From positions 4,031,501 through 4,095,500 of the forward strand of contig CP051140.1 in the NCBI GenBank assembly GCA_001592805.2: a DNA stretch of 64,000 nucleotides, in the 5' to 3' direction. Positions 31,713 to 36,433 of the stretch are shown in pieces. This DNA is from Peltaster fructicola (Eukaryota > Ascomycota > Dothideomycetes). How positions within the stretch are numbered: position 1 is the first letter of the stretch; each line of letters begins with the position of its first letter. The translations under genes were made by a program, and so were the position numbers. The notes beneath the pieces are model-generated. The model did no database searches. It was not told the origin of the DNA and worked only from the letters and a program-made list of their open reading frames with translations.

Positions 31713-32820
31713 ATGGGTAAGCGAGGATACGGTCTACTGCTGACGCTGTCGGCCATTACGGCCACAAGCGCACAAGTCGTCAATGGTATGCTCACACTAC
31801 AATTTCCAAGACTCCCCTCTGACCACAACAGCACTCCAAACCGTCAGCGTCTTTGCAACATGTGGTGTACCAACAAGTACCGCCTTCCCTCAAGGCTTCA
31901 GCTACTCTAGCATGAGCACCGGCACCCTCCTCCCAAGCTTCACATTTGCGCCGTCATCGACCGCAAGCTCATCCTACACGCTCACCACAGCAACAGCCCT
32001 ACCTGCCACCGCCAGCACGCCAGCCGGCGACACAAACTTCCCGCTCTGCAGCAACACCACGGTCCTCGACGCTTGCACGACTGTTCAAGGCCAGACGTGC
32101 CAAGACAACAATGGGCTGGCATATACCTTCATCTGCGCATCTGATATCTCCTGTGGCACTGTTCTCCCTGACAACACGGCATTGACGAAGCGATCCTTTG
32201 TGTTCACTTTTGCAGAATGTCTCGACAGCTGTGATGGCCAGGCTGGCTGTGTGGCAGCCACGTTCGATACAACCAATTCGATTCCGGGTGGTGGTTCAGA
32301 GTGTAGGCTCTTCTCGGCCGTCATCCAGACAGCACGAGTAACGATCCCGTTGCAACTGGCTATCCGTTGGTTCGCGGCAATTGGAGGACCTGTTCCATTC
32401 CCTCGCCAATCATCAAGCATTGTTGCAAGCTCAACAGCTACCTCTACAGCCAGTCTGTTGGCGTTGTCTTCCTCTGTGGTATCATCAGGAATCAGCTCGG
32501 CCGTGCCCTTCAGTAGTGCAGTCTCTAGCAGCGTACCATCGGCGCTTCCAAGCCAGTCGAGTGGCAGCTTGGCATCTTCAGTGGTCAGCCTCTCCTCGCC
32601 AACCAACTCGGCCTCCTCTGGTGTCAGCATTTCAGTGCCATCCAGCAGTGCATCCAATTCAGCATCGCTATCAGTCATTTCAAGCAGTGCAGCAGTCTCA
32701 GCATCCGCCTCTGTCACAGTGGCAACGCAGTCGGCTTCTGGAGTGAGTGCTGCGCTCACCGGAACTGTTTCGCCAAACCTTACCATGCGAAAGCGTCATC
32801 TTCATGCTCACAAGCATTAG
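31713..32820 (+). CDS. secreted Ser/Thr-rich protein with cysteine-rich domain
   Basis: Exons 31713-31785 and 31832-32820 (46-nt intron); 353 residues. The start MGKRGYGLLLTLSAITATSA is a signal peptide; an upstream in-frame ATG would bury it. The mature region begins QTVSVFATCGVPTST, followed by a Ser/Thr-rich linker and a cysteine-containing domain (FPLCSNTTVLDACTTVQGQT, FAECLDSCDGQAGCVAATFD, ECRLFSA) whose FAECLDSCDGQAGC pattern resembles fungal PAN/apple-like modules. A ~110-residue Ser/Ala/Val-rich tail follows, ending in a basic His-rich terminus (MRKRHLHAHKH) without a GPI signal. The protein is likely a heavily O-glycosylated wall or extracellular protein, convergent with the repeat-precursor gene. 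Confidence 0.78.
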
Positions 32821-33163: not shown

Positions 33164-36100
33164 TTAGCACTGGGTCTTGATGGCCTCGTTCCAGACGGAG
33201 CACTGGTCAGTTGGGGCAGATGCAGATGCAGACCATCCAGCACATCCCTGCTCGAAGAGTGACTTCCAGACTGGGCAGAGCTCAGATGGGTCGGCAGCAT
33301 CACGTTGCTGCTTTGGCTGCTGCTGCTGCTTGTTGCCGCTGAACAGGCTGCTCAGGAGAGAGATACCAGTGGAGATGATGCTTCCCCATCCAGCCTCACG
33401 AGTGGCCAAGTCGGAGTCGGCCATGCCATCGATCATGCTTGAGAGGTTGTCGAGGACATCAGATGGGACCTCAAGACCACGAGCGCTGAGCTCGCCGTTG
33501 CTCTCGTAGGCGCCAGCCATGCTCTGGAGTGCGGCGATAACGTCAGAGTCCGAGACGTCACGCTTGTGGAACAGGCTGGTCAGGATGGAGATACCAGTGG
33601 AGATGATGCTGCCCCATCCGGCGTCACGAGTGCTGAGCTCACCAGATGCAACGGCATCGTTGATGGCGGCCTGGAAGGCTTGCATCTCTGGAGACTCTGC
33701 AACATCGCGGGACTGCTTCTTGTTGCCAGAGAAGAGGCTGGTCAGAAGAGAGATACCAGTGGAGATGATGCTTCCCCAGCCTGGGTCACGAGCGTTGAGC
33801 TGACCAGATGCCATCATGTCGTCAACAGCAGCCTTGAAGGCTTGCATCTCTGGCATGTCTGCGACATCACGAGATTGCTTCTTGTTGCCAGAGAAGAGGC
33901 TGGTGAGGAGAGAGATGCCGGTAGAGATGATAGATCCCCAGCCTGGCTCGCGGGTGTTGAGATGGCCGGAGGCAACCATGTCGTTAACAGCTGCCTGGAA
34001 TGCCTTCATCTCTGGCATGTCCTGGATGTCACGAGACTGCTTCTTGTTGCCGGAGAACAAGCTGCTGATGAGGGAGATGCCGGTAGAGATGATGCTTCCC
34101 CATCCAGCTTCGGCCTCACGAGCGGCGAGCGAAGACTCAGACAGTGCGGACTCGACAGCGGACTGGAGCTCGGCCATGTCTGAATCTGAGATATCACGCT
34201 TTCCGAAGATCTTGGTGAAGATACCCTTGATGGTGTCGAGGAAACCAGCGTCGCGGGTGCTGATTTGACCGTTCTCGTTGGCGAACTGCTCGACAGCGGC
34301 CTTGAATGCCTGCATCTCTGGGGAGTTCTCATCGACGTCACGCTTGCCGAAGATCTTGCTGAAGATGCCCTTGATGGTGTCGAGGAAGCCGGCGTCACGT
34401 GTGCTCAAGGATGGGTTCTCCGCTGCCAGCTGCTTGAGGGCAGCTTCGAGCTCCTTCATCTCTGGGGAGTTCTCGTCAACGTCACGCTTGCCGAAGATCT
34501 TGCTGAAGATGCCCTTGAGAGTGTCAAGGAAGCCAGCGTCACGAGCAGACAGGTGTGGGTTCTCAGCTGCAAAGTCGTTGACTGCCTTCTCGAATGCGGC
34601 GTATTCTGGAGAGCTCTGAATGTCACGCTTGCCGAAGATCTTGCTGAAGATGCCCTTGATGGTGTCCAAGAAACCGGCATCACGTGCGTTGAGGTTGCCG
34701 TTCTCGTCAGCGAGAGACTCAAGAGCGGCCTGGAACTCGGCAAGGTCATCTGCAGCCTCAGCATCACGCTTTCCGAAGATCTTGCTGAAGATACCCTTGA
34801 GGGTGTCGAGGAAGCCTGCATCGCGAGTTTGGATGCCGTTCTGGGCAGCGAAGTCCTTGAGGGCCTTCTCAAGCTCGGCGACTTCTGGTGAGTTCTCGTC
34901 GATAGCACGCTTTCCGAAGATCTTGCCGAAGATACCCTTGAGAGTGTCCAAGAAGTTTGCGTCACGAGTGCTGATACCATTCTGAGCAGCGTAGTCGTTG
35001 AGAGCCTTCTCGAGCTCGGCGACTTCTGGTGAGTTCTCGTCGATATCACGCTTTCCGAAGATCTTGCCGAAGATACCCTTGAGAGTGTCCAAGAAGTTTG
35101 CGTCACGAGTGCTGATACCGTGCTGGGTAGCGAAGTCGTTGAGAGCCTTCTCAAGCTCTTGCATCTCTGGAGAGCCCTCAGCGATCTCACGTGCGACGAC
35201 ACCAGTGGCAGCGTCCAAGTCTGCGGCAGCTTGCTCGAGCTGAGCAACCATGGATGCTGGGAGATCAGTATCACGTTGCGAGACAGCGCCAACAATGTTG
35301 CCAATAATGGTTCCGACGTTTCCAATACCGTGAAGGATACCGGAGACGTTGACCTTGGCCTCGCGAGCTGCAACCTTGGTCTGTTGTGCCAGCTGGTTGA
35401 GGGCATCCTCGAGCTGCTGCATCTGTTCTGGAGTGACCTCCTGAGCACGAGCCTTCAGCTTGCTTCCCTTGATACCCTGGACTATGCCGACAAGGTTGTT
35501 GGCGATGGTGCTGACGCTGCTGGCTCCATCGAGGATCTTGCCGTAGTCGACCTTGCCTTTAGCGGCGTCACGGACCATCTTTGATGATGGGTGAATGATG
35601 CCCTGGACTGTTGAGACGAGGTTGTTGACAATAGTGCTGACACTGCTGGCACCATCGAGGACTTTGCCCCATGGAACGCTCTTGAGAGCTGAAGCAACGG
35701 TTGGGTCACGTGCTTCGACAACGGTGCCAATTCGGTAGTTTGGTCGTGTGTTCACTGGGACGCCGTAGTGAAGAGGAATCTTGGCCTCACGTGCCTGCAC
35801 AATACCAGCAAGGTTCTTTGCGATCTCGGTGGCATCTGCGATCTTGCCAAGGTTGCCAGAGATCTTGCCGTTCTTAGCATCACGGGCCTGCTGGTGGTTG
35901 TAGTAGGATGGGAAGCCCATGTTTGGACGACCGGCTGGAACGCCTTGTGGAGCGCCCTGGTAGTTGCCCCATGCTGCCTCAGCATCACGGGCTTGCTGGT
36001 GTTCGTAGTAAGATGGACGTCCCATGTTTGGTCGACCGACTGGGAATCCCTGAGGAGCACCCTGGTAGTTGCCCCAGCCTGCCTCGGCATCCCGAGCAGC

Positions 36101-36433
36101 GACCTGGTCGGTAGTCTGCTGTGTCTGAGCTGCCTGCTGTTGCTGTGGTGCTGCCTGTTGCTGTGGACCTGCTGGCGCACCCGCTGGCATACCTGCTGGC
36201 ATGTTCATCTGAGGACCCATTGGTCGACCTTGTGGGCGGCCCTGGAAGCCTTGTGGTGGGCCCTGGAAGCCTTGTGGTGGACCCTGGAAGCCCTGGCCTT
36301 GCCACTGGTGGTTGTGGTGAGCATCGCGCTTCTCAGCTGCGACATCTGGACCAGTGGATGGTGGGTTCACTGGTGCGGCTGCAACGGCGGCAGCGAGGAG
36401 TGGGACAACAACGAAGGACTTGACCTGAACCAT
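33164..36433 (-). CDS. secreted multi-peptide precursor: Kex2-type repeat protein
   Basis: Single exon, 1089 residues, from the ATG at 36433; the open frame upstream of it has no ATG. A signal peptide (MVQVKSFVVVPLLAAAVAAA) precedes a Lys-Arg at 35-36 and a Gln/Gly/Pro-rich region. Then come two WGNYQGAPQG units, four related segments around 190-400 (for example YGKILDGASSVSTIANNLVG), seven FLDT(L/I)KGIF(S/G/T)KIFGKR segments (444-746) alternating with acidic ~26-30-residue spacers, and five GWGSIISTGIS segments (772-1044). The tail has four cysteines in two CxVWx7C units. Nearly every segment ends in KR, TR, AR, SR or QR and the next begins with Asp or Glu. This is the layout of fungal Kex2-processed repeat proteins, with logic like alpha-factor and Ece1 precursors. 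The released segments look membrane-active (amphipathic, hydrophobic), but activity is not shown. Strongly biased codons suggest high expression. No homologue is recalled. Confidence 0.88.
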   Translation of the reverse strand: MVQVKSFVVVPLLAAAVAAAPVNPPSTGPDVAAEKRDAHHNHQWQGQGFQGPPQGFQGPPQGFQGRPQGRPMGPQMNMPAGMPAGAPAGPQQQAAPQQQQAAQTQQTTDQVAARDAEAGWGNYQGAPQGFPVGRPNMGRPSYYEHQQARDAEAAWGNYQGAPQGVPAGRPNMGFPSYYNHQQARDAKNGKISGNLGKIADATEIAKNLAGIVQAREAKIPLHYGVPVNTRPNYRIGTVVEARDPTVASALKSVPWGKVLDGASSVSTIVNNLVSTVQGIIHPSSKMVRDAAKGKVDYGKILDGASSVSTIANNLVGIVQGIKGSKLKARAQEVTPEQMQQLEDALNQLAQQTKVAAREAKVNVSGILHGIGNVGTIIGNIVGAVSQRDTDLPASMVAQLEQAAADLDAATGVVAREIAEGSPEMQELEKALNDFATQHGISTRDANFLDTLKGIFGKIFGKRDIDENSPEVAELEKALNDYAAQNGISTRDANFLDTLKGIFGKIFGKRAIDENSPEVAELEKALKDFAAQNGIQTRDAGFLDTLKGIFSKIFGKRDAEAADDLAEFQAALESLADENGNLNARDAGFLDTIKGIFSKIFGKRDIQSSPEYAAFEKAVNDFAAENPHLSARDAGFLDTLKGIFSKIFGKRDVDENSPEMKELEAALKQLAAENPSLSTRDAGFLDTIKGIFSKIFGKRDVDENSPEMQAFKAAVEQFANENGQISTRDAGFLDTIKGIFTKIFGKRDISDSDMAELQSAVESALSESSLAAREAEAGWGSIISTGISLISSLFSGNKKQSRDIQDMPEMKAFQAAVNDMVASGHLNTREPGWGSIISTGISLLTSLFSGNKKQSRDVADMPEMQAFKAAVDDMMASGQLNARDPGWGSIISTGISLLTSLFSGNKKQSRDVAESPEMQAFQAAINDAVASGELSTRDAGWGSIISTGISILTSLFHKRDVSDSDVIAALQSMAGAYESNGELSARGLEVPSDVLDNLSSMIDGMADSDLATREAGWGSIISTGISLLSSLFSGNKQQQQPKQQRDAADPSELCPVWKSLFEQGCAGWSASASAPTDQCSVWNEAIKTQC
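33302..34120 (-). repeat. five GWGSIISTG-type coding repeats (about 160-bp period)
   Basis: Codons 772-1044 of the precursor. Each unit encodes GWGSIISTGIS(L/I)(L/I)(S/T)SLF preceded by Arg-X-Ala or Arg-X-Pro; three share SGNKKQSR at the end, one ends HKR, and the last ends in a Gln-rich linker. DNA identity within the repeated cores is very high, so recombination or conversion between units is likely. Confidence 0.9.
34196..35104 (-). repeat. seven FLDTLKGIFSKIFGKR coding repeats (about 140-bp period)
   Basis: Codons 444-746 of the precursor. The units sit near 35049-35104, 34908-34963, 34767-34822, 34626-34681, 34484-34540, 34341-34397 and 34196-34255. The 57-nt cores differ by a few substitutions (Leu/Ile, Ser/Gly/Thr, Gly/Asn), while the acidic spacers between them vary more, the opposite of what neutral drift across the array would give. 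Confidence 0.92.

Follow-up and report, generated by a model that had tools for sequence, protein, structure and literature searches.

A repeat-rich, putatively secreted precursor of Peltaster fructicola with a largely monobasic code of predicted cut sites, and the peptides it may release

Background

What does a fungus make of a secreted protein that is built from repeated segments closed by arginine? The question is raised by a locus of Peltaster fructicola, an ascomycete of apple skin that is described as having few secreted proteins (107, with 12 small secreted ones) and a reduced secondary metabolism (PMC4786788). The locus lies in a stretch of 64,000 nucleotides, here called the window (C2:4031501-4095500 in the 18,987,130-base genome of five contigs), and some 59 kb separate the gene from the end of its contig, which has 4,126,644 bases. 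An earlier note on this DNA had drawn attention to a single open frame of 1089 residues and proposed that it encodes a secreted multi-peptide precursor of the Kex2 type. The frame is complete and unbroken in the open reading frame (ORF) read-out: 1089 residues plus the stop (33164..36433), on the minus strand like every feature of the precursor given below, from an ATG at 36433 to a stop at 33164, without an internal stop.

We favour the view that the product is a secreted polyprotein, a variant of the Kex2-processed repeat proteins (KEPs) of fungi, which would release at least 12 linear alpha-helical, membrane-active peptides of two main classes, masked in the precursor by acidic spacers; we give this reading a probability of roughly 0.55. 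The layout, the site code, the alternation of charge, the existence of a paralogue and the codon bias can be read directly from the sequence, and are described first.

Results and discussion

Anatomy of the precursor

From the N-terminus, the chain consists of a signal peptide (residues 1-20, 36374..36433, recognised by inspection), a propeptide, a Gln/Pro/Gly-rich segment, two WGNYQGAPQG units, longer segments, seven class A units, five class B cores and a tail with four Cys. The class A repeat, [GN]FLDT[LI]KGIF[SGT]KIFG-KR, is present in seven copies and the class B repeat, of the GWGSIISTGIS type, in five; the WGNYQGAPQG unit and an LDGASSVSTI unit occur twice each, and acidic spacers stand between the segments. 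The four repeated types make the "at least three" repeat families of the earlier note a lower bound, and its estimate of 12 or more peptides is borne out by the repeat count, with 7 + 5 cores in addition to the others.

The class A array (residues 416-746, 34196..35188), delimited by repeats, alignment and structural model, alternates seven acidic spacers with seven cores. According to the repeat alignment, the cores occupy residues 444-462 (35048..35104), 491-509 (34907..34963), 538-556 (34766..34822), 585-603 (34625..34681), 632-650 (34484..34540), 680-698 (34340..34396) and 728-746 (34196..34252), the last two being also covered by an AlphaFold2 model. The class B array with its acidic spacers follows (residues 747-1044, 33302..34195). 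Its first four cores, placed by repeat alignment, are residues 773-801 with an EAEA start (34031..34117), 829-855 with EP (33869..33949), 883-909 with DP (33707..33787) and 937-958 with DA and an HKR end (33560..33625); the fifth, placed by repeat analysis, is residues 1013-1044, with an EA start and a PKQQR end (33302..33397). At the DNA level, Tandem Repeats Finder picks out three arrays: 33569-34102 (162 bp), 34191-35147 (141 bp, with further rows that overlap it and extend to 35158) and 35876-36091 (105 bp).

All class A fragments have 19 residues, or 15 residues and a charge of +1 without the leading dipeptide and the trailing KR; class B fragments, once trimmed, have 18 to 29 residues (mostly 24) and a charge of 0 to +2. 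The spacers of both arrays are 26-29 residues long with a net charge of -2 to -7, versus +1 to +2 for the class A and B fragments. Past residue 40 no run of 19 residues has a mean hydropathy above 1.6 (maximum 1.46), and therefore, by this crude test, no stretch resembles a membrane span, a feature that the published KEP pipeline screens out with TMHMM.

The predicted cut-site code

A junction was defined as a cut after each Arg whose next residue is D, E, A, G or Q, counting from after residue 36 in the precursor and from after residue 122 in the paralogue described below. This rule gives 35 junctions in the precursor and 13 in the paralogue. Twelve of these 48 are dibasic, 27 have an aliphatic residue at P4, 7 have a basic residue at P4, and 2 fit neither class. 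Kex2 is reported to prefer Leu or another aliphatic residue at P4 and to tolerate other residues at P2, with LxxR given as an expanded motif (PMC8528282), and over both paralogues the Kex2 rule fits 46 of the 48 junctions. A frequent P2 residue at the precursor sites is Ala, which is absent from the top five P2 residues given in PMC8528282. Kex2 cleavage at these sites is a prediction from the residues around them.

The type of site depends on what it closes. Every acidic fragment that has a junction after it (22/22: 15 in the precursor, 7 in the paralogue) ends in monobasic [LIV]xxR; every core of class A type (11/11, four of them in the paralogue) ends in KR or RR; and of the class B-type cores (5 + 2 in the paralogue) six of seven end in KxxR and one in HKR. 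Past its propeptide, the precursor has 27 monobasic and 8 dibasic junctions. The earlier note had described the segments as ended by Arg, often Lys-Arg; the Arg ends stand, being far from chance in shuffled sequences, while the frequent Lys-Arg does not agree with these counts.

Of the 43 Arg in the precursor, 36 end segments, namely the propeptide with its EKR and the pieces closed by the 35 junctions; another 6 come before Pro, and a single one lies elsewhere. Asp or Glu follows 33 of the 43 (mean 5.2 and maximum 14 in 5000 shuffles), and [DE][AP] follows 22 (mean 0.9, maximum 7). The same step from Arg to Asp/Glu is found at 14 of 24 Arg in the paralogue, versus 49 of 430 in 15 other ORFs of the window, and the full motif [LIVM]xxR[DE][AP] at 16/43 Arg in the precursor, 6/24 in the paralogue and 0/430 in those ORFs.

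The dipeptide mark and candidate processing enzymes

A second signal is found at the beginning of the fragments. Over both paralogues, 26 of the 28 fragments with a charge of at least 0 start with [DE]-Ala or [DE]-Pro, versus 2 of the 23 acidic ones (Fisher test, p 4.9e-10); the fragments were counted by hand, omitting residues 1-36 of the precursor and 1-108 of the paralogue, and the p value overstates the case because the repeats are non-independent rows. The mark is present in two acidic fragments (residues 557-584; the C-terminal tail) and absent from two non-acidic ones, pieces of 14 and 3 residues that both belong to the paralogue. More telling than the p value is the variation of the dipeptide among the five class B cores (EAEA, EP, DP, DA, EA), all of which keep to the Ste13 class. 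This XA/XP signature of STE13 is usually tied to alpha-pheromones (PMC6339444).

Candidates for the enzymes are encoded in the genome. There is one P_proprotein match, for kexin, with an E value of 1.1e-30; one match, of the Ste13 or another type, to the DPPIV_N family of dipeptidyl aminopeptidases; and serine carboxypeptidase S10 is matched 12 times, in part by exons of a single gene. Trimming of the core ends by enzymes of these families is putative. Since class A cores end in Gly-Lys-Arg, C-terminal amidation was also considered; the monooxygenase C domain was searched for and matched neither in the genome nor in the controls.

The paralogue, constraint and codon bias

One relative was found in the genome: AMS68_005034, annotated as "hypothetical protein", of 453 residues (C3:2850667-2852025). 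Its signal peptide is alike on inspection, the two proteins agreeing at 11 of their first 21 positions, and its cores, four like FFGLLKQLFGLG-RR and two like LLPFLFKAIPTVLGMF...KKSGR, alternate with acidic spacers in the same way. In both proteins, therefore, a short, cationic class of core is accompanied by a longer, hydrophobic one. The peptide sequences differ, and the cut sites and the flanking code are kept; loss of the basic sites, which the earlier note had named as a sign against processing, is not seen in this one relative. The acidic spacers may be the reason why UniRef gives the paralogue an EF-hand name; a Pfam search of it gives no such domain.

A search with residues 115-415 of the precursor gave no additional relative in the genome. 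Protein searches returned nothing outside the P. fructicola genome; each scored about 8000 candidates selected by shared 5-residue words and length limits, a scheme that could overlook relatives which are distant or much shorter. Likewise, a prokaryotic contig collection contained no relative of the precursor, and PDB sequence searches with the full protein and with one core per class gave nothing useful. Want of homologues is common in this kind of protein: 2560 of 7878 KEPs are reported as stand-alone (PMC6339444, PMC7329392).

We compared codon-aligned repeats with one another to obtain the ratio of nonsynonymous to synonymous differences (pN/pS). In the precursor, this ratio is 0.19 in the class A cores versus 0.50 in their spacers, and 0.28 versus 0.72 in class B; these values support a tighter constraint on cores than on spacers. 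Codon adaptation, measured against two HSP70 genes and methionine synthase (which score 0.813, 0.717 and 0.657 when left out of the reference in turn), is 0.78 for the precursor, 0.516 for the paralogue and 0.355 to 0.532 for 14 other ORFs of the window. The codon bias of the precursor is comparable to that of methionine synthase and HSP70; the bias that the earlier note had taken as a pointer to high expression is thus borne out for the precursor, though not for the paralogue.

Predicted structure and helix periodicity

AlphaFold2 folds residues 651-746, two spacer-core units of class A, with a mean predicted local distance difference test score (pLDDT) of 81.2 and a predicted template modelling score (pTM) of 0.66, into helices at positions 7-22, 31-45, 55-70 and 79-93 of the model. 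Cores and spacers are placed in separate helices, and the predicted cut sites, which follow positions 29, 48 and 77, lie in the stretches that link them. Helices are confidently predicted in class A only. A fold search with this model gave no match to a solved fold below E 0.47.

The helical moment of six core types exceeds that of shuffled sequences at a combined p of 1.9e-4 (single types 0.012 to 0.21), versus 0.85 at the beta angle; six spacers give 0.046 (alpha) and 0.41 (beta). The six core types were picked by the analyst and include the better of the two copies of the LDGASSVSTI unit (type D), and alternative choices were also computed: the combined alpha p is 0.0022 with D copy 2 swapped in, 0.010 for the two main classes of each paralogue, and 0.0025 for ten non-acidic types.

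Comparison with known precursors

KEPs are widespread, with functions described as largely unknown (PMC9769878). The precursor resembles them (PMC6339444, PMC7329392) in its putative signal peptide, in having three or more similar fragments bounded by KR/RR sites and in the STE13 signature that some of them have. The published repeat rule asks for at least three similar KR/RR fragments making up at least 15% of the length; the precursor has six like fragments of 47-48 residues (47x6/1089 = 26%), their likeness being judged from the repeat alignment. The class is already known; the precursor differs from it by its monobasic site code, its repeat types and its spacers. The published rules are dibasic-only, the surveys cutting at KR/RR (KK when too few) or at KR/KK/RK/RR (PMC6339444, PMC7329392), whereas 27 of the 35 junctions here are monobasic; and three motif types are reported for 2 of 1193 KEPs and two types for 77 of 1193, whereas the precursor has four repeated types as well as spacers. 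Because both surveys cut dibasic sites only, precursors with [LIV]xxR or KxxR sites would come out under-divided or escape notice. The main text of PMC7329392, as distinct from its supplements, does not name Peltaster. With the KEP repeat rule, the kexin and DPPIV_N matches in the genome and the position of the sites between predicted helices, the proposal of a secreted multi-peptide precursor of the Kex2 type is supported.

The earlier note had also likened the architecture to Ece1/candidalysin. Ece1 is comparable as a secreted polyprotein that Kex2 cuts into several peptides, of which one damages membranes; however, it has 271 residues, 7 KR sites and 8 peptides and is not itself repeated, whereas the precursor has 7 and 5 core copies, acidic spacers, Ste13 marks and the prevalence of monobasic junctions. 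The comparison is one of architecture. That with fungal Kex2 repeat proteins stands, by repeats and cut-site rule, and that with Ece1 comes down to a general resemblance. Rep1 and Hum3 of Ustilago maydis share the many amphipathic repeats with Kex2 sites, but their repeats have 34-55 residues (Rep1) and 31-36 residues (Hum3), and Rep1 forms fibrils, whereas the precursor has short cores and acidic spacers.

In the arrangement of charge, there is a strong likeness with the complex precursors of the cupiennins, cytolytic peptides of spiders (PMC7889660), in which many cationic linear peptides alternate with anionic linkers ending in Arg. These are animal venom precursors, with linkers of 11-13 residues and a quadruplet motif of their own, in contrast to the 26-29-residue spacers and the kexin/Ste13-type sites of the precursor, and they too are likened to it by architecture only. 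The alternation of acidic spacers with cationic, predicted-helical peptides, known from animal linear cationic precursors, is found here, the class B helices being of low confidence.

Precursors of the dikaritin/ustiloxin kind, which are ribosomally synthesised and post-translationally modified peptides (RiPPs), combine a signal peptide with Kex2-bounded repeats; the precursor differs from them in that the window contains no match to the UstYa family (DUF3328), whose two genome matches fall on C1 and C3. The reading as a cyclised RiPP was dropped, no UstYa gene having been found near the precursor, and for the same reason no modification other than trimming is expected of the released peptides, which should be linear. 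The UstYa-family match at C3:2938885-2939157 is about 87 kb from the paralogue, too great a distance for a cluster.

Proposed processing, and the alternatives

Cleavage, trimming, masking, membrane activity and the target are the steps that we infer. The precursor would enter the secretory pathway with an acidic spacer helix next to each core helix, balancing its charge and masking its hydrophobic face. Kexin would act on the loops that join the helices, where it would cut both after KR/RR and after a monobasic [LIV]xxR or KxxR; a Kex1-type carboxypeptidase would strip C-terminal Lys/Arg; and a Ste13-type aminopeptidase would strip the X-Ala/X-Pro dipeptides, which mark the cores and hardly any spacers, to leave GFLDT... 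and GWGSI... peptides. At high dose, these may insert into or disrupt the membranes of microbes or other cells on the fruit surface. The presence of two core classes in both paralogues suggests that they act as a pair. More tentatively, and at somewhat less than even odds, we suggest that this is an independently evolved "complex precursor" of the venom type in a fungus, consisting of a gene and its diverged sister, with two cooperating classes of linear, membrane-active helix silenced by acidic spacer helices, and with the kexin P4 residue and the Ste13 dipeptides telling peptide from spacer. Caution is in order, as PMC9769878 describes no specific function for any of the KEP peptides that it examined.

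Several results weigh against the membrane-active polyprotein. Two N-terminal junctions of the precursor, both QQAR, are the ones that fit neither Kex2 class. The trimmed class A cores carry a charge of just +1, and for individual cores the amphipathicity has a p of only about 0.05 relative to their own shuffles. Helix periodicity is missing in five of the ten non-acidic types: D copy 2 (p 0.40), residues 185-215 (0.91), residues 216-242 (0.46), the WGNYQG unit (0.53) and the class B type of the paralogue (0.20). The alignment behind the class A model consists of six overlapping repeat-pair rows, all from the precursor, which are not independent evidence, and at a pLDDT of 56.3 the model of class B, with 108 residues and three rows, only hints at helices. 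In the paralogue, pN/pS is 0.18 in class A cores versus 0.20 in spacers, which is no contrast, and in class B the order is reversed (0.68, from one pair, versus 0.30). Cores also have fewer synonymous differences than spacers, so that recent homogenisation may account for part of their conservation. Finally, the codon adaptation of the paralogue falls within the range of ordinary ORFs, so it is not evidently mass-produced.

The very high codon bias and the near-identical copies would equally suit a structural product, which also tells against a membrane-active role and leads to a different, less likely explanation, the main rival: that the peptides are wall-coating or surfactant ones like Rep1 or Hum3, the amphipathic pieces assembling on hyphae after cleavage to repel water and to attach them to the waxy cuticle. 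The niche of P. fructicola is a waxy plant surface (PMC4786788; another such fungus is described in PMC5602860), cleavage of Rep1 at its Kex2 sites yields amphipathic peptides, and the surface-active fibrils which these form serve in attachment to hydrophobic surfaces (PMC4617103), and bulk output would agree with the codon bias and with seven near-identical copies. Ten of the Rep1 peptides, however, have 35-53 residues and come from mostly tandem repeats, versus cores of 15 and mostly 24 residues with acidic spacers here, and the periodicity of the cores is alpha, not beta. Moreover, the genome has a single class II hydrophobin match (C1:2704682-2704843), so that a substitute would be unneeded; a search for class I hydrophobins gave no match in the genome and no match in the controls either.

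The Ste13 signature is of the alpha-pheromone kind, and near-identical repeats under strong core constraint are what a pheromone or another hormone precursor with a receptor might show. We nevertheless consider signalling peptides very improbable: the pheromone cores of Dothideomycetes (PYGxPxG or two Cys; motifs from PMC6339444) do not occur in the repeats, pheromone families are not among the Pfam matches of the precursor, it contains at least two unlike classes of peptide, and hydrophobic helices would, in our view, be odd ligands of a receptor. Hardly any weight is left for an intact secreted protein of helical repeats, in which the Arg sites remain uncut in the cell. AlphaFold2 does build four helices from two spacer-core units (pTM 0.66), but no solved fold was matched below E 0.47, nearly all Arg either end segments or precede Pro, and the diverged paralogue has retained the code, not the peptides.

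If the cores of the favoured polyprotein are membrane-active, a secretome-poor fungus would be using ribosomal helical peptides as an arsenal, or else as a coat, on fruit skin. The gene pair supplies a readable code for the ends of peptides and spacers, one that could be tried on other secretomes.

Other segments and the genomic neighbourhood

The remaining segments of the precursor were delimited by repeat and junction analysis. The short propeptide (residues 21-36, 36326..36373) ends in EKR and is followed by the Gln/Pro/Gly-rich segment (residues 37-114, 36092..36325). The two WGNYQGAPQG units (residues 115-184, 35882..36091), whose end junctions lie outside the P4 code, each have a DAEA start like that of a pheromone precursor, yet a QQAR end that is outside every Kex2 rule applied. 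Core type D, of the LDGASSVSTI type, is represented by copy 1 (residues 243-288, 35570..35707), with a DP start, and by the non-periodic copy 2 (residues 289-329, 35447..35569), with a DA start; core type C (residues 358-387, 35273..35362) is Gly/Ile-rich and helix-periodic, with an EA start. The C-terminal tail (residues 1045-1089, 33167..33301) is single-copy and does not align to the paralogue; its four Cys are the only ones in the precursor, none of them before residue 1053.

Pfam matches MtrF above cut-off at residues 860-887 (33773-33856), a stretch that is mostly acidic class B spacer, and we regard this as a chance match; the NCBIfam models TIGR02507 MtrF and NF009776 both score below cut-off. 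Automated annotation of the precursor may carry the name over.

A Pfam scan of the neighbourhood covered 20 ORFs of the window, with shorter or intron-split genes outside it; 13 match families, all ordinary, and 7 match nothing. The matches include TRAPPC13, DENN, Thg1, short-chain dehydrogenases, a hybrid histidine kinase, methionine synthase, alpha/beta hydrolase, peroxidase, Pex19, a ubiquitin-conjugating enzyme and a glycosyltransferase. Convergent with the precursor gene is a Ser-rich frame of 345 residues (31783-32820, plus strand), without a Pfam match, which ends in a Lys/Arg/His tail and, judged by eye, may have a signal-like first exon near 31713.

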